From Hyphochytrium catenoides (lineage: Eukaryota; Sar; Hyphochytriomycetes; Hyphochytriales; Hyphochytriaceae), in assembly GCA_900088475.1 (NCBI GenBank), contig FLMG01003999.1, positions 1-64,000 of the forward strand: 64,000 nt of DNA, given 5' to 3'. Made by a program: the position numbers and the translations under genes. Shown in pieces: positions 19,275-53,460 of the stretch. Under the pieces are notes generated by a model that was not told the origin of the DNA, did not search any database, and saw only the letters and a program-made list of their open reading frames with translations. Every line of letters begins with the position of its first letter. Within the stretch, counting starts at the first letter, position 1.

Positions 19275-19327
19275 AGGTGAAGGTTAATCTCATCATCAGT
19301 CAGTAGGTCAAAAGCTCAGCCGTCAAA

Positions 19328-20254
19328 ATGAGCATGGTGTCGGATGAGGCAACGAAGACGCACGTGATGCCCTTGGCGGAGGCTAATGACTCGCTATTAC
19401 GATTTGCCACCTATGAAGATTACCTAGATTCCCATGTCAGCGAGAAGGATATTGCCTATCTGGAGGTCAGACTAGTGGGTCTCTGCACCTTGATGTTATT
19501 ACTACTTAATCTCTTATTGATCTGATAAGCAGGACGAGGATTTAGCTAGGCAACTTGTTGAGCTGGGATTCAGAGGCAGCAGTAAGGCACTCAGTAGGGA
19601 AGAGTTTGACATCCAAAAGAAGGCGGAAATAGAACGACATCAGCCCAAGAAAGATGACCCCAAGCCTTTGGCAAGCGCTGGATGTGATCTTCTGGGCTCA
19701 CCTTTCTATCAGTGCCTTGCAAGTAGAGAGGAGCTAGTGCGAACAGGAAAGCTCAGTGTACGTGACTGGAACTCTCACCCGCCCACAATCACTCGCTGAG
19801 TCTGGCCCTTTAGACTATCATCTTTCTCAGAACTCACAATGCGAAGGGTCAAGAAGTAAGCGGCTATTTAGATTATGGTGCCAGACTGGAGTCAGACCCC
19901 TTTGAGCAATATTTCCAGAAAAAGAAAAGGCTCATGCCACGTCCGAACGATTTGAGCTATTATAACTGGGACTCCCAGACGTCGACATCTAACTCCACGG
20001 AGAACTTTCAGGTACTAGTTGATCCAGAGCACGGTCTATTATTCAAGAGCAAAAAGGACAGAAAGGTTATCAATGTCGACCCGGAGGTACGCCGCAGCAT
20101 AACTAGACAACAATATGCCTTCAAGACGTTGCTAACCCTCGCCACCTTGGATTGATAGGAGGACCCTGGAGACAATACGACTAGATCCGAGATAAAGACT
20201 CAGGAGTATGAACAAGTGGTCATTTACGACCACATGACCCGGAGGAAGGCTTGA
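19328..20254 (+). CDS. CFAP299: cilia- and flagella-associated protein 299
   Basis: Four exons: 19328-19465, 19533-19757, 19814-20086 and 20159-20254, all in phase. The protein matches CFAP299 (formerly C4orf22) throughout: FATYEDYLDSHVSEKDIAYLE, then DEDLARQLVELGFRG, the segment EVSGYLDYGARLE, then KKRLMPRPNDLSYYNWDSQT, LLFKSKKDRKVINVDPE, and the conserved end VVIYDHMTRRKA before TGA. CFAP299 is a small conserved protein of organisms with motile cilia, with no enzymatic motif. Length (about 240 residues) is normal. It converges on SF3A2 with 52 nt between stops. Its presence implies a flagellated life stage. Confidence 0.92.
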
Positions 20255-20306: not shown

Positions 20307-21678
20307 CTATTGAAATGTGAGCTTTGGGCGAGGTGGCGGTGGTGGAGGCGCTTGCGAGTCTCCAGGACCCTTGAAATAAAGCTGAAGCTGTGCCATGAAA
20401 AGGGAAGACGATGATGAATGCCAATGCAGGTCAAGACATCCAAGGAGCTTGTGTGGACCTACCGTGAATAGTCGATTCTCGCGGTCCCAATTTGTGAAGA
20501 ATCTCCCTTCAGACTTATCCACCTCCATGTTTGGCACCTTGAACCCAATTGTCTCATAAGGCTCACATGCGAAAAGCACATACCTGACCACCTGTTAGTC
20601 TACATGATGATGATACGCAGCAATGGATAGTGTACATACTGGAAGTTCTTGTCCGGTGCTTCCACCCGCTGTTCATAGGCCGACATGAAGCGATGCCGTG
20701 GCTGAAATCCCTCATTGACCTCTGGATACTCGATTTGGAACAGAAGGCTTCTCGCTCCTGATTCAGGGTCTCTGGATTTGGTCACCTACGGTTGAAGCTG
20801 TCAGGACACAATCGGAGTGAACCACTGATGTCTCTAAGCGGCAAACCTTGTAGCCTGGACGGCCAATTTTGATAGTCTTTCTCACTTGAACCTTCGGGGC
20901 CCTAGAAGGGATGGGTTAGCAATGTTTCCCTATGAGCTCGGGGTAGTCATAGGATTTCTCTTACAGGCTTGGGGCAATATTTGCTTCCGCAGCTTCCTTC
21001 GCCGCTATAATTTAGGACCAACAGATCATGAGTATCATACTAAGACATCAACGTAACCACCAACGTACCTCGTCTGGCCAGATTTGTTTGATGGCGCTTT
21101 CCTTGGGTATGGGCTAGGTAATTCCCCTCGTTATTGTGGAGAGTTAAGCAGAGCTTGCACTCAAAGGATCCAAGGTGATTTTTCATAAAGTAGGGATCCT
21201 GGATATAACAGCCAGGTCAGATTGCGGATCATCGTAAGGTATGACAGAGAGGTCGTTACCTTGCTTAGGTCAATTGTTTCCATAGCTAGCTTTCTAAGGC
21301 GCTCTCTTCTGTCAATATTTGCCTGCTCTGCAGACATAACGCCTCCTGATCCAGGCTTCGAACCTACTCTATTTTGGAAGTCCATCCCTCCCCTTAACCT
21401 AAGGACAAGATGAAGAGTGCTCTCCTTGCCAATGTCGTACTCATAAAGGGACCGTCTATCCTCGAGCTGCTTTGTTCCGAAAATGAGTCTCTGCTGATCT
21501 AGAGGAATGCCCTCTCTGCTCATGAGCTCCATTTTCACAGAGCTGATTGTGTCAGCTGGGTCAACTTCCAGTGTCGTGGTCCGCTCTGTGGTTCAGAGCA
21601 ATCGGGTTTTAGTACACGGCCAATTGCAAGGTAGCGTGCGAAGGACGTACCATCTATATTTCTGACAAAGATCTGCAT
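20307..21678 (-). CDS. ubiquitin-SF3A2 (Prp11/SF3a66) fusion
   Basis: ATG 21678 opens with MQIFVRNID. Exon 1 (21678-21651) splices through GTACGT...CACAG to exon 2 (21585-21260), completing a 76-residue ubiquitin that ends [13 protein letters not shown]. The next codon (21385-21383) is the Met of SF3A2: [16 protein letters not shown], then [17 protein letters not shown]. Following exons give the U1-type zinc finger ([17 protein letters not shown]...[16 protein letters not shown]), [29 protein letters not shown], then [10 protein letters not shown] and a short proline-rich end, stop TAG 20307-20309. SF3A2 is a U2 snRNP subunit needed for prespliceosome assembly. Ubiquitin K27, K48, K63, I44, H68 and V70 are kept; K6, K11, K29 and K33 are lost. 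The exon-internal junction makes an annotation artefact unlikely. Cleavage after GG by deubiquitinases is inferred. Confidence 0.92.
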
Positions 21679-22510
21679 ACTGCTTTACGTGGGCCGCTTT
21701 TTGCCTTGCAAACACACCAGGAAGCTAATGGTTCTGGAGGAAGCTCACGGAAAGCTATTCAGCTAGACACTCGCCAAGTCCTCCGTTGCCCGCACTTGCG
21801 CAACAGACTTTCGTGGCACTTGAACAACCTTCTTCACACTCCGATGCTCATAAATCGGCAGCACTGATGCTCCAGATTTATTCAAGTTGTAGCTATCTAA
21901 TAATGAACGCAAAGCAAAACAGAGGAACCTCGCGGAATCTCCATCTGCAATAGCAATACAACTCTGCCATTGGGGCCTCCAATCTCCTGGGAGGGTTCTG
22001 GCGGTCTGTCATTGAGTTTCTATGTGCAGAGATTCTGGTACAACAACCTTTTTGAGTACTGTACAGAACCTAACAACAACAACTGCGTACGGGGGGGTGT
22101 CGACGGCAGAAGCTCTTGTGGAGTTCTGTAGCCAAAGCTTCAGTGAGAAGAAGGAAAGGAAATCTACAATCTGATCAGCGATCATTGATCAACATCACAG
22201 TCACGGGCAAGCCCAAGGGTCAAATTGTCCTTCTCCAGACTTGCGCGTCCAGTTGAGGTTATTGAGTTGAGATTGAGAGGATTGTAGGAAATCGTACTCA
22301 CAGAGACACATCATGCAGCTGGCCATCCAGTGTGTGGAGTTTGGAGTGTCGAGATAATCAACGGCGGTGCAGGCCACCCCGCTCTTTACTTCATCCGTGC
22401 CTTGCCTATAGTCAAAAGAGTTGCCCCTTTAGCGCTTCCCCTTGCCTTTGAGCTTCACATTCTTTTCTTGGCTTAACATACAAGGCGAAGGGTTAATTCT
22501 ATTTGGTCCA
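21679..22510. promoter_or_regulatory. divergent intergenic region SF3A2 / UGDH
   Basis: 832 bases between divergent starts with no supported coding exon. Contains a C/T-rich stretch before 22440 and several direct short repeats of CAACAAC (22060-22085). Presumed to hold promoters and 5' UTRs for both genes. Confidence 0.4.
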
Positions 22511-31443: not shown

Positions 31444-33345
31444 GTCTGGCTGATTATAGCTATTCCCAAATCCTATTATGTGGCAAATATACAAAGATTG
31501 GTAGTCCTAGGGCTGCCCAAAGCTTCGTCTTATGGTCGTTCGTCGAGGCCGATTTAGCTTTGGAATACGATGACGATAAGCAGCACACCTTTCACTCTCA
31601 TCCGTCTCAGTATTCCAGTCAGAGTCGTCTGAAGGAGATGTATTCGTAGAGTGTCATGCTGAAGAGGCAAAAGCCATCCTCTGGGACCCTTGTAATAATC
31701 TCACTTGCTTTCGTCTGCCACCTTACCCGTTGTCACGCTTTTGCTTTGGGCTGCAATATTTCAACTTGAGACCTTGGATGAACTGTACCTTATTAGCTTA
31801 TTATAAGCTACGCGCCAGTACTGTTCACTCTTTCTTCCTGCTGCCCCACCCGCAGTAAATGTGCTTTGCTCCGTCTTTAATTATTGAGCAGAGTTGCCCA
31901 CCGTATCCTGACTTACTATGGTATTGTCCTCGGGAAGGAGGAACGATTGGGGCCACGGCTCTCGTCTCGTCATCGGGGATCCCCCGCACCACCAACCGCC
32001 GCCTCTCGACAATCGACAGCAAAAAAAGCGTTGCGAAGCAGCGGCACTAGAGGAGGTACGACCAGTCATCATATCAACCCTTCGCCCGTTGTTCCATCAG
32101 CAGTGCTAACAATTCAATAGCCGGCGCCCGACAACAAAAAGGGGGTCCGACTATGTAGTCAGTAAGCAGCGACATGCGAGCTACGTCCGGAACCCGATAC
32201 CTGCATCTTACCCACAGTACAGCTCACAGTACGCTAGGTTCTCTTGCTACTCCCTTCCATGTGGAAGCCTTCTTCCCACCAATCCATCTTCCATAGAACG
32301 ACAGTACTTGGTAATAACCCTTCACCAGTCTTTTTGTGTACAAAGAGCAATACAGTCTACAAATACTAAAACTGCTACTCCCTGTCAAGGTGCGCCGAAG
32401 GGTACGATCATCTCTAACACAGCTTGAGGCCCTGGAACATCTACTGTAGCTTCTATGTCATCAGCATGTCTGTTCCTGTGGGTACATAAAGTCAGTAGGA
32501 TAGCGTCAGGGCTAAGACCAACCTAAGATTACTTGTCAGCAGCCTTGAGGTTGTAGGTTGTACAGCCATAGGTAAAACAGTAGAATGACTGATGGGCATA
32601 AATCATGCTTCTTAGACTTCTCTGTATATTCCCTCCAACTCTTTCTTATATAGTCATAGACCTTTCACATGGATAGCAGCTGTATGCAGGCTTCTTAAAT
32701 TTTCAAGTGTAAAAGGACAAACTCTTATCCATCTACCCAGCACTTATTTTGCTTTGCTCAGTTGAGCGCTGCGACACAAGTAAAACAGGTTAATGTCAGA
32801 ACGATACCGCCTGTCCCACTTCCCATCAACGTCGTCATTTGTAGTTGAAAGAGTAAGAGAGAGCGGGACTATCCATGGAAGTAGCTGCTTATCAGAGCCA
32901 TGCTGACAACTGTATCACCGCTTCTCCTTGGAATGGCCACAAGGATAGAACTTCTCCTCAACTCGTCTTTATCCGTTCAAGTCGTGAGGGGAGAGAGAAG
33001 AGCTCCTCTTGTTGAGTAGGTGAGCAGCGACGGCCTGTACTACTGCTACTTGTAGAACTATACCCTCTTTAAAAGATACAATCGCTTTAACTAACAAAAC
33101 CTCTGCCTTTGCTTTCATCAGTTTGAGGGTTCAAACGTCAAGCTGATGCACTTCGGTCGGGACGTCCATAACTCTACTAGCAGACGGTGAGACGCCAAAT
33201 AAACGTAGCTGTCTATTCATCTGTCCTCACTTTGCATTTGTCGCGTTGAGACTCGAACCAGCGGGTAGAACTTGGCTACGCTGCAGCCTTTAGTCCTTGA
33301 GGTGTCGGCATACTCTACAGGCGATCGTGAGAGGACAGCGCAGCA
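31444..33345. other. 1.9 kb gene-free interval upstream of tyrosinase
   Basis: Several short overlapping frames (for example around 31825-32120 on both strands) but no exon chain with a family signal. The last few hundred bases presumably contain the tyrosinase promoter and leader. Confidence 0.4.
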
Positions 33346-35049
33346 ATGGGTTCTACCGTACATGCAGGCAGATGGAAAGTTCTCCTACTTATAACACTAT
33401 GGAGTGTCTTCGCCTTGGAGCCAGAGGCGAAGGATCCTTCCCTATCCAATAACTTTAGCCGAAGGCAGCTAAGCCAGGTGTACACAGGGGTTCAACAGGT
33501 CGAATGCGGCAATCTCGGAAGGCTAGTAGATTACATGTTCCAACACTTCTTTGACCGTCCGTCACCCTGTCGTCAGAGCGAACCTCCTACTAGTACTAGT
33601 CCTACACCAAGCCCTCCAGTTCCTACGCCAAGCCCTCCAGTTGTGGCGTCATCTAATGGCGATTCGGGGTATGATAATCTGCCAGATGGTAGCCCTGCTC
33701 CTCCACTTGGCTCGCCGCCAGCCACGCGGAAACCCAACCCGGATTCTACCGCTCCTCAAGCCCCCGCGACGCCTACACCTCAACCTGGAATACCAATACT
33801 CTCTCCTTCTCCTGCAAATAGCCCTCCCAATGTCCCCACACCAGCTCCAGCAAGCTTCGCGCCAACTCCGGCAGTGACTGTGGCTCCGTCAGCCCCTGCA
33901 CCCACACAACCTCCTACTCCAGCACCCAGTCCCCAGCCAACTCCTTCACAGCCTCCGCCGACGGTAGACCCATCGCGTGTTGATTCTGTTCGGAACTGCA
34001 AGCAAGGAGTTCGCCAGCGGAAGGAGTACAGGGAGCTCTCTTCAGCCGAGTGGGATTCGTTTAAGGCCGCGGTCATGAGGCTGCTCAAGGTTCCCTCGCA
34101 GAGAGGGCACAACTCCTTATACGAGGAGTTCTGTCACGACCACTTCAACTATCGAGAAGACTCGCATAGTGGGTCTCAGTTCTTACCGTGGCATCGCCTC
34201 TTCCTGGCAAGGTTTGAGTCGGCCCTTCAGTCAGTTGACCCCAACGTGGTGTTGCCTTATTGGGACTGGACGAAGGATCTCCCTGATCCTCTTAATATTC
34301 CGCTCCTCAAGGATGACAAGTATTTGCATCTGGGGAACGACTGCCCCATTAAAGTGAACAGCCCGTACGCATCCTTTGGTCCCAATCACTGCGTCTTCAG
34401 AGAGCCCGGCACACGAAACACTACGTGGTACGCACCCTGGAGAATTGACTCGCTAATTAAGACGGAGAGACGGTTCTGGAAGTTCTCTGAGGTGGTGGAA
34501 TTAACCATTCACAATGTGGCTCACGTCCAGGTTGGAGGAGATATGTATTATAAGAGTAGCTCGGCCTGCGATCCTCTCTTCTTTCTCCATCACGCGCAGG
34601 TGGATAGGCTCTGGTACTTGTGGCAAGCCCGGGAGGGAAATATGAACAGCTATGATGGTGAGCACTTCCATGGCACCGAGAAGCAGATGACTGTTGCCCC
34701 CTCGGACATTCTCATGCCATTTGATGTATCGGTGGCCAGTTCTCTCGATACTGCAAAGCTCTGCTATACTTACGGTTCTCCATCTTCGTCGGTGTCTTTC
34801 TCGTTAGTTGCGGAACACACGGAGCAGGAAGATACCTTTCAAGGTATTGACGAGGACTGGGTCAAGGAAATGGGAATGAGTATTGAAAAAGTGCGAGAAG
34901 CAGAAGCCTTTATGCTAGCGCTCACGCCGCCCAAATTAGAGAACAATAAGGCGTCTTCAGGATCACGGGCTTCGAGGTCTGTCGAGGGCATTACGTGTCT
35001 GGTAGCGCTGCTCAGCTGGTTGTTGACTTGGGGAACATTGTCTGCTTGA
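33346..35049 (+). CDS. secreted, probably GPI-anchored tyrosinase with proline-rich stalk
   Basis: Uninterrupted 567-codon ORF. An N-terminal signal peptide (residues about 10-25, KVLLLITLWSVFAL) precedes a short conserved segment and a Pro/Thr/Ser-rich stalk (about 80-210, TPSPPVPTPSPPV-type repeats). The type-3 copper domain follows. CuA has H264 (or H266), H274 and H283 in FLPWHRLFLARFE; CuB has H389 and H393 in IHNVAHVQVGGDM and H416 in DPLFFLHHAQVDRLWYLWQ. YWDWTKD is also typical. The C-terminus has a small-residue/Ser site and a hydrophobic tail (CLVALLSWLLTWGTLSA), as expected for GPI attachment. Tyrosinases oxidise phenols to o-quinones, used in pigment, wall hardening or adhesion. 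All six copper histidines are present. The absence of introns contrasts with most neighbours. Confidence 0.95.
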   Translation: MGSTVHAGRWKVLLLITLWSVFALEPEAKDPSLSNNFSRRQLSQVYTGVQQVECGNLGRLVDYMFQHFFDRPSPCRQSEPPTSTSPTPSPPVPTPSPPVVASSNGDSGYDNLPDGSPAPPLGSPPATRKPNPDSTAPQAPATPTPQPGIPILSPSPANSPPNVPTPAPASFAPTPAVTVAPSAPAPTQPPTPAPSPQPTPSQPPPTVDPSRVDSVRNCKQGVRQRKEYRELSSAEWDSFKAAVMRLLKVPSQRGHNSLYEEFCHDHFNYREDSHSGSQFLPWHRLFLARFESALQSVDPNVVLPYWDWTKDLPDPLNIPLLKDDKYLHLGNDCPIKVNSPYASFGPNHCVFREPGTRNTTWYAPWRIDSLIKTERRFWKFSEVVELTIHNVAHVQVGGDMYYKSSSACDPLFFLHHAQVDRLWYLWQAREGNMNSYDGEHFHGTEKQMTVAPSDILMPFDVSVASSLDTAKLCYTYGSPSSSVSFSLVAEHTEQEDTFQGIDEDWVKEMGMSIEKVREAEAFMLALTPPKLENNKASSGSRASRSVEGITCLVALLSWLLTWGTLSA

Positions 35050-39534: not shown

Positions 39535-41258
39535 ATAGAGCTAAACTCAATGCAGAAAAGATGGCCCTCAAATCAATTCTTACCATGACGAACAGACCAT
39601 ACGGACGTTCAGGTGGAGATTCTTGAGAATACGCGGGGCCAGCACCTCCGTCAAAATGTAGGGGTGGTATATGCACGCTGAAGTAGCATCTGGTACTATG
39701 GCGTGGCCATTCTTCTGTCTCAACAAGAATCTCCACGTTGCCGTTCGGAGCCTCGACCTTCCACCTGTGGTCAGGACTGGTAGGATTTGCATCGGCCTCA
39801 GAAAGGTAGATTCCCATGCAAGAGTCGTTGTCCGTTGTTGATGGAGAAGAAGTACGGATTTCATCAACGAAAGTGCAGACAGTACTGCCGGACCAACCCT
39901 GGGATCCCTAAGCGACGAAAACGCTATGGCTTGACTAGTGCTGCATGTAAGATGTATGGTAACTATCACCCACCACTCGATGCAGGATATTCTGGCGATT
40001 GGAAGACTCGCCCTCCCGCAAGCTCGCTCCAGAGAATAGCTAAGGGTTTTCATTTATGAGAATGAGTCAGTTCTAGCATGCGGAGGATAAATAGTAACTT
40101 CCGTACCCCAATGTAGAGCTTCTTCAACTTTTCATCTTTGAGCGCGACATCAAAGAAATGGTACTGGCCACGTCTCAAACTTCCATGGTGCCAGACTCCT
40201 TCAGGTCTTGCGTTTATCCTTGTAGAAGGCATAGGCCGGCGAAGGATCACCTCTAGATCGAACAGGTTCCTCTCTGCATAGCCATAAATCCCAATGATGA
40301 AGCTGAACACGTATTGCCGTATATGTAAAGTGTGAGTCAAGTGCATGTAAAATGATTAAGCTGGTTACCTCCTTGAAGCCCTCAACCTAATGTCGTCAGG
40401 ATAAATATCAATACGATCCGCTCCAATGTTGGTAGACTTCCACTGGTATCTGTCGGTATCCGGCGCAAGATTACCATCCAGGAGGTTGTTGACGTATATA
40501 TCAGGATCTCCAATCTCCTCTCCATCATCACCAAGGACGGGAGCGACCTTCAACTAGGCCTTTCGTAAGCATCCTCTCTTTGACAATTGCACAGACCCAC
40601 GACAACACCATACCGTTAATACATCCTGCGGATCTGCTCTCTCAAAGCTATAGTATTTGAAGCAGTTCATCGCGACCTCGGCCCTTATGACTACTCCAGG
40701 CTTAAGTTTCTCTTTCTGAACTGGCTGAATAAGTTCACATATCAGTCGGAAGTAGATAGACTTCCCCGGAACCTGAGTAGAGCACCAGGCTAAGGGTAAG
40801 TTTAAGGTGATCCTAACGACAGCAAAGCTGCATACCGTTGATGAGAGTCCGAAGAAGATGCTCTTAGCTGCAGGGTACTTGGCCAGCTTGACTCCAAGGA
40901 GCCTCTCTCCTTTCCCACGGATATCCATTCCGTCCCTCCAAGAACCATCACAATGGTTCAACGTCGGAAAGGCATTATCAATGCCGTAAAGAGCGATGAG
41001 ATCTGAAACGGCACCCTTCTGAGATGAATAACCCGGATGAGTCTGGTCTCCGATTGGGCCCTTCAGAAGCTCACTCTCACCATCGTCAGAATAATATAAA
41101 GCTTGAAAGGCAAATAGTAGTAGGGCATCACTGGTCTCTGCTAGGCTTTCTAGAGATAAATGGTAATAGACATAGCCTTCAAAGGGACAAGAGCCGTAGA
41201 TAGTGCTGTTAAGACTCAATTCAGCCGGAGCAGCTATAGAACTATGACGAGTCCGCAT
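38719..41258 (-). CDS. PPC-like repeat protein continuing into a DOT1-like SAM methyltransferase
   Basis: The 5' part (41258 to about 39590) encodes several beta-sandwich units like bacterial pre-peptidase C-terminal domains: GDPDIYVNN...YQWKSTNIGADRIDIYP (about 40530-40400), RGQYHFFDVALKDEKL (about 40160) and YLSEADANPTSPDHRWKVEA (about 39800). A GTAAGA donor after YGLFVM and a GAGTTTAG acceptor, 43 nt apart, join this in phase to LYMKEVNEEDL and the methyltransferase. That domain has SFVYGEIEFLSF, then the SAM motif FYDLGCGIGKAVCAAALSG, GVELLPAL, VDWRDADLIYTSSICFDEDLL and the end MSWGRASVYLLVKK before TAA 38719-38721. The catalytic region resembles a widespread protist family related to DOT1; its substrate is unknown. 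The start may be further upstream. If the 43-nt intron is not used, these are two genes. Confidence 0.6.
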
Positions 41259-41435
41259 CTCTGCCTTAGTTATGGAGCTTTATCAAAAGTGGGAGGCTCT
41301 TGTATTGAAAGTAAACGATCCGCAATGGTACTAGTACGACCCAGCGCTAGCCATGGCCATGCAGGGTTCTTGAACGCCACACGCATCAACGTGATGCTTT
41401 TGGGTCTTAGCAACCGAGCTGGGAGCTTTCTTCAA

Positions 41436-41463
41436 TCTGTGAATCTGTGAATCTGTGAATCTC
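41436..41463. repeat. 8-bp tandem repeat (CTGTGAAT, three copies)
   Basis: Three consecutive copies of an octamer just upstream of the 5' end of the PPC/methyltransferase gene. May be a promoter element or simple slippage product. Confidence 0.8.
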
Positions 41464-42057
41464 ATGGGTCTCTGGACTGGACAAGAGATGAATTTCTCTT
41501 GAAACGACCAAAGCTCTACATTCGTACAAATACTAGAAAGAGCTCAATACTACAGATAGCGTTAGGCGGTTATCGATGCCATGGTTATCAGAAAGAGATG
41601 AGGCCGTTACCGGTGCTTCAGATCACTTTCGTTCGTTACTTCTTGACTTTTTGGTGTTCAACACCATGATGAGGCTCTCAGCATCTGTCGACCTTGGCAA
41701 ACAAACCTCTTGCCTTTGACGCCGCGCTCTCTTGAATGTAGTGCAGATTGACGGTGCTGAAGGCCGCAGGACTTCCAATGAGCAAACGTGCCCGATAAAA
41801 GCAAGAGCTCCTTTCCTACCCCAAACAGTTTTAGGCACGGTATCATAGTCAAAAGGGTTCTTCGCAGACAGGAGACTCGGAAAGTTCACGAGTAAAATGG
41901 TCAAATAGCTCTCCCCATAAAGACGTCGAAGCTATATCTCTTCTTCTTTCATCATCACGTCTCTGGCATGCCAGCTGCTGCTTGGACGCTGCGACTTCCT
42001 TCTTGCTTCTAGCCTCATGGTTACCCTATTTCACTGAAAGCAGCAATTAGTCCAAAC
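41464..42057. other. intergenic region with an ambiguous minus-strand ORF
   Basis: A 93-codon minus-strand frame (41623-41904) contains SAKNPFDYDTVPKTVWG and KGALAFIGHVC, which look protein-like. It lacks an ATG, and two candidate upstream exons give incompatible frames, so no gene is called. The rest is the leader and promoter of the GTPase at 42058. Confidence 0.35.
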
Positions 42058-42717
42058 ATGGGGACATGCCAGTCCCAGCTGGAGGCTGTGAAGATCTTCC
42101 CGGCTGATAGCAATGGCGAGCTTTCAGCAAACTATGTGCCTACGTCTAAAGTCAAAGGTGGATATAAGGTCCTCGTCTCTGGACTTGCCTCTTGCGGAAA
42201 GACAAGTCTTATCTTAGCGATGGTTGCGTTTTTGGCCGAAGGGAAGCCAAGAGGAGATCAGGAAGGGAGGACGTTAGTGGTCCCAACGCCTCGGCCGTCA
42301 GAAGCAGTTCGATTTAGCAAACTGACTTATAGAGGAGCAACTTTATATGTAGGAGACCTCCCGGGCAGCATGCATCTCAGAAGAACGTGGTATAAGGACG
42401 AGGTGCTCAATGACACACGGCTCATCGTGCACTTAATAGACTCTCAAGATGAGGCGAAGCTAACGCTGTCTCTAGTAGAGCTCGAGAGGTTATGTGCAGT
42501 GTGCAAAGACAGAACGAAGCGCTTCAACTTGCTCATTGTCGCCACTAAGCAGGATGCACGGCACCCTATGGACCAGCTCTGTATCAAGGATCGCATTCAC
42601 GAGGCCGGCTTCAACCCTATGGTACCTTGGGATATCTTCCGCTGCTCAGTAAAAAGCGGGGAAGACTTGCTTCACATCTTGCAGTGGATAATGAACAGCA
42701 TCACTGGCAAGTTATAG
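42058..42717 (+). CDS. Arf/SRPRB-like small GTPase with N-terminal acylation motif
   Basis: Single-exon ORF of 219 residues. It begins MGTCQSQ: Gly2 with Ser6 fits N-myristoylation and Cys4 fits adjacent palmitoylation. G1 P-loop GLASCGKTS (42-50); G3 DLPG (100-103), as in SRP receptor beta rather than the WDxGG of classic Arfs; G4 TKQD (163-166); G5-like CSVKSGE (196-202). The fold order and the hydrophobic C-terminal helix fit the Arf/Arl/SRPRB class. There is no N-terminal transmembrane segment, so it is not SRPRB itself. It probably acts at a membrane via its lipid anchor, but cargo and effectors are unknown. The G4 Asn is replaced by Thr, a substitution seen in some Arl proteins. Confidence 0.82.
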   Translation: MGTCQSQLEAVKIFPADSNGELSANYVPTSKVKGGYKVLVSGLASCGKTSLILAMVAFLAEGKPRGDQEGRTLVVPTPRPSEAVRFSKLTYRGATLYVGDLPGSMHLRRTWYKDEVLNDTRLIVHLIDSQDEAKLTLSLVELERLCAVCKDRTKRFNLLIVATKQDARHPMDQLCIKDRIHEAGFNPMVPWDIFRCSVKSGEDLLHILQWIMNSITGKL

Positions 42718-51566: not shown

Positions 51567-52469
51567 CTACTCGGTCAAAAGCGGTCCTAGATGCTCCAGA
51601 AGGATGGCTTTGTAGGACGCCGTCGCAACGTCATCTGGATTCTGCTTCAATCGCAGATCGCATACTTGCAGCTCTGACTCTATTTTTGCTCTTTTGTTCG
51701 TGGACCTTGAGAGCTCCTTACGTGGAACCGCAGATGTTGCTGCCTTCCCTTCATCTCTCTCAGCCTGACCTTGTCGAGGTTGCAGCAGGCTGGGGGCCTC
51801 AAACAAGCTGCCTACAAATGGTTCTGGACCCAAGTCAGCCATAAAGCCCTCAAAGTCCGGCGGTATACCAAAAAATGCGCTTGAGTAATCAACCTCTTCC
51901 GTCACCGGCGGAGCGGTCTCTAATTTTCTCTTTTTGGAAGCCCCGTTTACGTCCAGAAGGGATTCAGTGGTTGTTGAGGCCGAAGGTGTAGCGCCTCCTC
52001 CAGATGTCATCAACTGTGACAGGCTTGTAAGAGACTGAGTTAGCTCCGCAACCTGCGTTTTCAGCGCCTCCACATCGCTTCGAAGCCTTTCCATTTCACT
52101 CTTGTCATCGTCGCTATAAGTCTTCCGTTTAATCTTGGAGAGAAGTTCCCGCTTTCCTCTTTGGAAGTACTCGTGCTTGAACTCCCACCATCCTGTTTCC
52201 TGCGTTTGATCCAGCTTGCCGCTGCTCAAGGTCCCAGTTTCGTCAGTCCGAAGCTTATGGAAACCATAGAAGTTCAGCTGTCTGACAAAGGAGCTAAACT
52301 TGCTGTGGCGGAAAAACTTAGGCAGCACAGTCTCTGAGAACTCCTTGGGTCTCTTGACAATGAAGGTTCTCCCGTCCTTCGTCCAGTCAACAATACCATC
52401 TGTCTCGGGAGCAGAGATGAGCTTGAAGGTTTTCTCTAGAAACGCTGAGACTACGCGACCACTAGGCAT
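51567..52469 (-). CDS. heat shock factor-type transcription factor
   Basis: A single long exon. From ATG 52469 the DNA-binding domain follows at once: VVSAFLEKTFKLI, IVDWTKDGRTFIVKRP, the recognition region LPKFFRHSKFSSFVRQLNFYGFHKL, then WWEFKHEYFQRGKRELLSKIKRK. A leucine-zipper trimerisation segment (ERLRSDVEALKTQVAELTQSL) follows, then a Ser/Thr-rich linker, a basic KKRKLE element that could be a nuclear signal, an acidic/aromatic stretch (YSSAFFGIPPDFEGFMADLG) that may be an activation domain, and a short tail to TAG 51567-51569. HSFs bind nGAAn repeats and control chaperone genes. A TCTTTACAG acceptor at about 52532 suggests a 5' UTR or short coding exon upstream. Confidence 0.93.
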   Translation of the reverse strand: MPSGRVVSAFLEKTFKLISAPETDGIVDWTKDGRTFIVKRPKEFSETVLPKFFRHSKFSSFVRQLNFYGFHKLRTDETGTLSSGKLDQTQETGWWEFKHEYFQRGKRELLSKIKRKTYSDDDKSEMERLRSDVEALKTQVAELTQSLTSLSQLMTSGGGATPSASTTTESLLDVNGASKKRKLETAPPVTEEVDYSSAFFGIPPDFEGFMADLGPEPFVGSLFEAPSLLQPRQGQAERDEGKAATSAVPRKELSRSTNKRAKIESELQVCDLRLKQNPDDVATASYKAILLEHLGPLLTE

Positions 52470-52531
52470 CTTTTTGGTATCCGTCGGTCCAACAAGATTC
52501 GAAGTGGCGCCTTTAGCCTGTTGGGCTTGGC

Positions 52532-53460
52532 CTGTAAAGACTAGAAATGATAAAGGCGCAGACACGCGCAGATTGGGTGTCTTGCAGATGAAGGGTTGAG
52601 ATAGACGATTCAGCAGCAGAGACCAACTGTTCGCATACTCAACCTGGCTAGAGTTTGTGCTCTAAAGTCAGAGATGGACCCGCATCATCAAAAACCACTC
52701 TCTTCCACGCATCGACCGAGGAGATTGGCAATAACAAGTCTTCCTTTCGAGTTCTTGCAGCCATCAGCAACCTTGGCAACAAGGTGATGACGGTCGGAAG
52801 CTGGATAAACAAACCCCTTGACCGACCTGGCCTGGAGCCTGGAGGGATGATTGTTCTCCTGCTTGCTGTGGCAATGATCAGCCTCATCATCATAGATACG
52901 TCACTTGCTTCCCCTGCTCTCTATAAGGACAGCAGCGCCATCACTCTGCCGCTTTAGGGGTTCTCCACTCCAAAAGCGATTACCCTAGGGTTGTGATTCC
53001 CACATGTTCAGTCTTATTCTGAGATGCAGTATTTCATAGAGATATTTCGACCGGTAGCTACAGCTCTTTGATGACGTTAATCGGGGCACACCCATTAGGG
53101 CGAGTATATCTGGACAGGTAGACGTGGATGCGTCTATACCGGGGTGGGTAGGACCCACCCATCCTGGCTTGCTGGTCATGACAAGGTTATGGAAACCGAG
53201 TAAACCTTACTCAGGAGGGTCGGTCGGCACTGCTGGTGAGGTGTAAGCTAGAGTTAAACACGGGAAAGCCCTTACACTAACTTGATGGGGCGGGCGAATG
53301 CGTAGCTTTCCTACCTGCCCTTTTGGTGATGAGAGCAAGGGAGCGAAAGGGAAAATGTCGACATAGAGGGCTACGGAGTCCTCCATCCTCCTTCCAGCAC
53401 ACAGCAGAGCCACACGGAAAGATCTCAAGAAGCTAGGATGATTGTCAAGCTCCCTTCTTG
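52532..53460. other. HSF upstream region with opposing ORFs
   Basis: Two overlapping frames occupy 52648-52957: an 81-codon minus-strand ATG frame ending LTLEHKL and a plus-strand frame with a membrane-like helix (GGMIVLLLAVAMISLIII). Neither has a family match, and at most one can be real. The interval should include the HSF promoter. Confidence 0.35.

Follow-up and report, generated by a model that had tools for sequence, protein, structure and literature searches.

The FUBI-eS30 (FAU) precursor is an RNP core protein with a diverged domain of the ubiquitin type at its N-terminus, and this domain ends in GG. Its cleavage, according to PMC8354635, is needed for 40S maturation. The partner, eS30, lies near a working centre, the A-site decoding centre (PMC8354635; PMC10611586), and FUBI is described as 36% identical to ubiquitin (PMC10611586). 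SDE2, a splicing factor that acts on selected introns, has a precursor whose ubiquitin-type leader carries a GG site and is far from ubiquitin in sequence. As reported in PMC9508853, SDE2 joins the spliceosome once this UBL has been cut off, ubiquitin can stand in for the UBL in a chimaera, and the cut leaves an N-terminal Lys, an N-end rule substrate. In Ub-RPS27a and Ub-RPL40 a single N-terminal ubiquitin, normally canonical, is attached without a linker to an essential RNP component. Two protists, Bigelowiella natans and Guillardia theta, are described as having ubiquitin on many unrelated proteins, e.g. actin, P1, NiSOD, HMG box, RING and others (PMC6332867). The two tables of that paper name no splicing factor as a partner, some partners being hypothetical, and its main text has no mention of splicing, the spliceosome, SF3A or Prp11. 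A domain census gives 114 other domains combined with ubiquitin, and by its stated procedure drops ubiquitins under 80% identity (PMC8122580), so it would miss the sequence described here.

The locus lies in a window of 64,000 nucleotides from Hyphochytrium catenoides (contig FLMG01003999.1, positions 1 to 64,000). The gene is on the minus strand at positions 21678-20307 and has eight exons and seven introns; the introns are 56-75 nt long and 7/7 are GT-AG. The coding sequence of 927 nt encodes 308 amino acids followed by a stop codon. The product consists of a 76-residue ubiquitin that ends in LRLRGG and a 232 aa SF3A2, with Gly76 of ubiquitin joined without a linker to Met1 of SF3A2. Exon 1 (21651-21678) encodes residues 1-9 of ubiquitin plus the first base of its codon 10, and there is an in-frame TAA three codons upstream of the ATG of ubiquitin Met1. 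Intron 1 (21586-21650, 65 nt, GT-AG) splits codon 10, and read-through of this intron meets a stop (open reading frame 21535-21684). The junction is inside exon 2. The 5' part of this exon (21386-21585) encodes the rest of codon 10 to Gly76, i.e. ubiquitin residues 10-76, and an own-genome search gives 71.9 bits at 21392-21589; the 3' part (21260-21385) encodes SF3A2 residues 1-42 (MDFQNRVG...DLSK), as placed by alignment with human and yeast SF3A2. The ubiquitin codons are therefore at 21678-21651 and 21585-21386, the SF3A2 Met codon is at 21385-21383, and the predicted cleavage junction, Gly75-Gly76/Met1, is at 21383-21391.

The other exons, on the same strand, encode the remainder of SF3A2. 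Exon 3 (21069-21198) has the zinc-finger region (CKLC...H), exon 4 is at 20965-21004 and exon 5 at 20847-20901, exons 6 and 7 (20640-20785 and 20463-20583) encode the PF16835 domain, and exon 8 (20307-20387) encodes the SF3A2 end with a short proline-rich tail and the stop. These were placed from the sequence, exons 3, 6 and 7 also by Pfam, and all of them except exon 4 also by assembly search.

Pfam analysis of the 308 aa protein finds the whole ubiquitin model (PF00240) at residues 3-74 (E = 1.3e-21), the SF3A2 domain PF16835 (E = 3.5e-38) and the zf-met finger PF12874 (E = 4.5e-7). These E-values exclude a chance match for the domains. A misplaced neighbouring gene is excluded at the level of the sequence because exon 2 is shared between the two parts, intron 1 is within ubiquitin codon 10, and an in-frame stop is found upstream of the ubiquitin Met. 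The initial annotation had described a complete ubiquitin in frame before a full-length SF3A2 and had argued, from a first intron inside the ubiquitin part, against a misplaced neighbour; the gene model, with its split codon 10 and its zero-linker junction in exon 2, bears out both statements. As judged from this gene model, the locus genuinely joins a diverged ubiquitin to a core splicing factor, with no linker between them.

The SF3A2 part aligns from residue 1 with human SF3A2 (E = 6e-101; residues 1-227 on 1-224), with 71% identity over a 213-column alignment, and also from residue 1 with yeast Prp11 (E = 6.3e-15). Thus Gly76 joins directly to the ancestral Met1. The SF3A2 domain and the C2H2 (zf-met) finger are both present and colinear with the human protein from residue 1, and by these alignments the partner is a normal SF3A2/Prp11 orthologue. 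All SF3A2 matches in the assembly (42,489,369 bases, 1105 contigs) are at the fusion locus (6/6, contig C698); no separate unfused SF3A2 copy was found in this 42.5-Mb assembly, which may be incomplete. In human and yeast, the N-terminus of SF3A2 is described as reaching into the Bact active site, where it helps hold the 5' splice site G1, and the N-terminal domain as absent in early Bact and present in mature Bact (PMC5835773).

The ubiquitin leader differs clearly from other ubiquitins. It is identical to canonical ubiquitin at 50/76 positions, and to the genome's own polyubiquitin at 49/76, i.e. with 27 substitutions. The earlier figure of about two thirds identity agrees with this count; the word "complete" is right for the length (76 residues), but the sequence is clearly divergent (about 65% identity). 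The residues K27, K48, K63, I44, H68 and V70 are kept, as are R72 and G75-G76. The changes at lysines are K6R, K11R, K29E and K33R, i.e. four of the seven lysines are lost, and every residue that had been listed as kept or lost is correct in the sequence. K29 is a lysine used in the ubiquitin-fusion-degradation route. The divergence is unusual for ubiquitin, a nearly invariant protein that is given as 96% identical between human and yeast (PMC8122580).

A comparison of the leader with the genome's own polyubiquitin by the NG86 method gives a dN of 0.29 and a dS of 2.5 (saturated and rough), and a dN/dS of about 0.12; with the ubiquitin of Ub-RPS27a, dS is undefined. These estimates are rough, as a dN of 0.02 is given for polyubiquitin and RPS27a ubiquitin although the two proteins are identical; the dS between these two is 1.2, so that their synonymous sites are also far apart. 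The saturated synonymous sites, together with limited protein change, point to a probably old leader that has been maintained as a protein, although saturation alone does not date the fusion. The GC3 value of the leader is 0.55 and that of the SF3A2 part 0.51, compared with 0.78 and 0.67 for the ubiquitin genes.

The substitutions are unevenly spread. There are none in residues 63-76 (0/14, P = 0.001, for a set chosen after seeing the alignment) and nine in residues 20-34 (9/15). A figure legend in PMC10611586 labels residues 4, 36, 42, 44, 49 and 70-74 as the patch and tail of ubiquitin engaged by USPs, and none of these ten is substituted in the leader (0/10, hypergeometric P = 0.0086). When the core residues 13 and 15 labelled in that legend are added, 1/12 is substituted (I13T, P = 0.028). 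Weaker support comes from sets of our own choice: an Ile44/Ile36/tail set has 2/15 substituted (P = 0.039) and a core set 2/14 (P = 0.058). This pattern fits selection for recognition by ubiquitin proteases, but the same surface is largely used by other ubiquitin readers too, not by proteases only.

Other ubiquitin-type genes are present in the genome. A polyubiquitin gene on contig C1046 is cut by the contig end and shows one full unit and part of another. A Ub-RPS27a gene on C589 has a canonical ubiquitin that is identical in protein sequence to the polyubiquitin unit. The genome's canonical ubiquitin has D16 and Q28, which are common in stramenopiles and alveolates. Neither PF01020 nor a typed consensus (the latter search run without a positive control) found a ribosomal L40 gene in the assembly, and this may be due to a gap or to splitting by introns. 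SF3A1, on C720, keeps its C-terminal Ubl (PF00240 E = 1.7e-9, with the Ubl exons joined by eye). Many CT/GA microsatellite runs were seen by eye in the introns and flanks of this SF3A1 gene (L018), in contrast to the compact introns of SF3A2. SDE2, on C992 (L050 1162-1590), has its own leader, MQVLVQF...LLGGKGG, with a GG-K site; the yeast-type model PF13019 gave no match, which does not show absence. Thus two splicing factors of this genome, SF3A2 and SDE2, are encoded with GG leaders.

Three possible sources of the leader were rejected. A recent copy of the RPS27a ubiquitin together with its intron does not fit, since the RPS27a intron splits codon 35 and that of the leader codon 10. A relocated SF3A1 Ubl and a relocated SDE2 leader are rejected since both domains are still in place, the Ubl on SF3A1 (C720) and the leader on SDE2 (C992).

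A further open reading frame on C1041 (about 40923-42665; L021 2924-4666) encodes two ubiquitin-like domains followed by a RING finger (PF00240 E = 6e-30; zf-RING_2 E = 4.3e-7), and the second ubiquitin-like domain ends LRLRGGGGGFPFADV. It resembles the ubiquitin-RING fusions described for B. natans and G. theta (PMC6332867).

In the window, the tail-to-tail neighbour of the SF3A2 gene (19307-20155, plus strand) has a DUF4464 match (E = 3.7e-26). We take it to be CFAP299, a cilium/flagellum protein, and its presence suggests a flagellum. Two other open reading frames were noted by eye: a 572-aa frame at 33331-35049 (plus strand), tyrosinase-like with a proline-rich N-terminal part, and a frame at 51567-52661 (minus strand) that resembles a heat-shock-factor type DNA-binding domain. 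Genes inspected in the assembly have several introns each. A search of the assembly for a light-harvesting protein gave no match, with a positive Synechococcus control, and split exons could escape this search.

The fusion protein has the layout of a ubiquitin fusion precursor: one N-terminal ubiquitin whose GG is immediately followed by the partner, in one reading frame. Its ubiquitin moiety is not canonical or nearly so, as the 49/76 identity to the genome's own polyubiquitin shows, and the protein is also a case of a UBL leader, i.e. a diverged ubiquitin fold with GG at the N-terminus of an RNP factor. It is not of the SDE2 family, as Pfam lists no SDE2 domain and the partner is SF3A2.

The likeness to FUBI-eS30 is in the diverged GG-ending domain and in a partner that acts near a working centre. 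The differences are that eS30 is ribosomal and SF3A2 a splicing factor, that FUBI is further from ubiquitin than the SF3A2 leader, and that cleavage of the SF3A2 fusion is a prediction. With SDE2 the locus shares a splicing factor behind a leader with a GG site; however, the SF3A2 leader is a recognisable ubiquitin, the released SF3A2 would start with Met-Asp, and SF3A2 is a core U2 snRNP subunit. It resembles Ub-RPS27a and Ub-RPL40 in its single linkerless ubiquitin, but has 27/76 substitutions in that ubiquitin. SF3A1, another SF3a subunit, also has a ubiquitin fold; this Ubl is C-terminal, more diverged, and still on SF3A1 here, and thus has not moved to SF3A2.

The fusion is probably a cleavable ubiquitin-type leader on SF3A2, cut after Gly76. 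According to this proposal, the gene would make SF3A2 as a precursor behind the leader, and a ubiquitin protease of the ordinary USP or UCH classes would cut the precursor after Gly76, freeing SF3A2 with its native Met-Asp-Phe N-terminus. The leader may be an aid to folding or expression, or a lock on the SF3A2 N-terminus, and uncut SF3A2 may be unable to complete activation of the spliceosome. Since the SF3A2 N-terminus enters the Bact active site, a 76-residue fold retained there without a linker should clash, as extrapolated from the human and yeast structures. Once released, the leader would probably not count as normal pool ubiquitin. In the assembly, 46 segments on 24 contigs match the USP-type peptidase family (PF00443), 45 of them over the cut-off, and the genome thus has many candidate proteases for the leader. 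The initial annotation had proposed that maturation of SF3A2 may need cleavage by a deubiquitinase. The zero-linker junction, the place of the SF3A2 N-terminus in the active site and the conservation of 10/10 of the residues labelled in the PMC10611586 legend speak for it, and of the readings considered, deubiquitinase maturation with its predicted cut asks for the fewest assumptions.

It is unlikely, in comparison, that the ubiquitin fold stays on SF3A2 as an interaction module of the U2 snRNP, in the manner of the SF3A1 Ubl. The diverged leader does keep I44, H68 and V70, a usual binding surface, and a Ubl is not foreign to the U2 snRNP, SF3A1 having one at its C-terminus. There is also a precedent for an uncut fusion, Ub-eS31 of Giardia, although that case is attributed to a changed GG site (PMC11354881; PMC8122580). 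An intact LRLRGG and a zero-linker Met1, however, are not needed by a permanent module. The earlier suggestion that the domain stays attached as a spliceosomal module is weakened by the Ubl that SF3A1 of the same genome still carries (PF00240 E = 1.7e-9) and by the part that the N-terminal end of SF3A2 plays in the active site of Bact (PMC5835773).

It is quite improbable that most SF3A2 is made from transcripts that start downstream or are spliced differently, the fusion being minor or accidental. The SF3A2 Met has a G at both -3 and +4, a fair start context, and it is the first in-frame Met of any transcript begun within about 135 nt of the end of the ubiquitin part; transcripts begun upstream of codon 28 or 31, on the other hand, would reach the in-frame Met at those codons earlier. 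A pyrimidine-rich stretch shortly before the SF3A2 Met contains an AG at 21400-21399 (TCTTGTCCTTAG), an unscored candidate acceptor. The GTs between 21520 and 21406 would pair with this AG as introns of 54, 42 or 8 nt, compared with the 56-75 nt found in the gene, though a separate non-coding first exon could be spliced to it, or transcription could begin near the SF3A2 Met. On the minus strand, this AG is part of the AGG codon for R72, which is CGC in Ub-RPS27a. The constraint on the leader (dN/dS about 0.12, rough, with dS saturated) and its unchanged tail also argue against this explanation, since neither would have to be preserved in an exon that is untranslated or of minor use.

The suggestion in the initial annotation that the fusion couples the supply of free ubiquitin to U2 snRNP assembly fares poorly. 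As an extra source of normal ubiquitin, the gene would tie this supply to the making of U2 snRNPs, as Ub-L40 and Ub-S27a tie it to that of ribosomes, and R72, G75-G76, K48 and K63 are indeed kept and the assembly search found no L40 gene. Yet 27/76 positions of the leader are substituted with 4/7 lysines lost, canonical ubiquitin is already encoded by the polyubiquitin and Ub-RPS27a genes, and the GC3 of the leader resembles that of SF3A2 and not that of the ubiquitin genes; this role is thus very improbable. With its 27 substitutions and only three of the seven lysines the leader would be odd as a pool member, and to judge from its residues it is unlikely to be a normal one, although E1 charging could still occur as R72 and GG are kept. 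It is hardly credible that uncut ubiquitin marks SF3A2 for degradation by the ubiquitin-fusion-degradation route, limiting SF3A2 unless a deubiquitinase rescues it: K48 is kept and ubiquitin stably fused to an N-terminus is known to signal degradation (PMC3564756), but K29 is lost, and with GG intact and Met as the P1' residue cleavage should win.

The cleavable leader may have a more specific form, put forward tentatively and with little confidence, in which the ubiquitin cap is a timing lock. Capped SF3A2 could join the U2 snRNP and early complexes, where the SF3A2 N-terminal domain is not yet placed, and the early-to-mature Bact step would need a spliceosome-linked deubiquitinase that cuts the cap. 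Removal of the cap would be needed when the SF3A2 N-terminus enters the active site beside the 5' splice site G1.

No report of a ubiquitin-SF3A2 fusion was found among the best-ranked papers in searches of open-access literature. Related loci were not found in viral contigs (0 relatives; 13 and 27 pattern stretches) or in prokaryote genome contigs (0 relatives; 36 and 34 pattern stretches), and none were expected there. Beside the ribosomal fusions, SDE2, and the scattered algal and zinc-finger fusions in the sources cited, a core splicing factor as a ubiquitin-fusion partner would be new. Expression of the fusion would make a core U2 snRNP subunit dependent on ubiquitin-type processing for its native N-terminus, and structures place this N-terminus in the active site of the spliceosome. 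The parallel with FUBI-eS30 suggests a common logic, i.e. to cap an end that must enter a working centre until the assembly is ready. Should the timing lock be true, protease activity would license splicing in this lineage.
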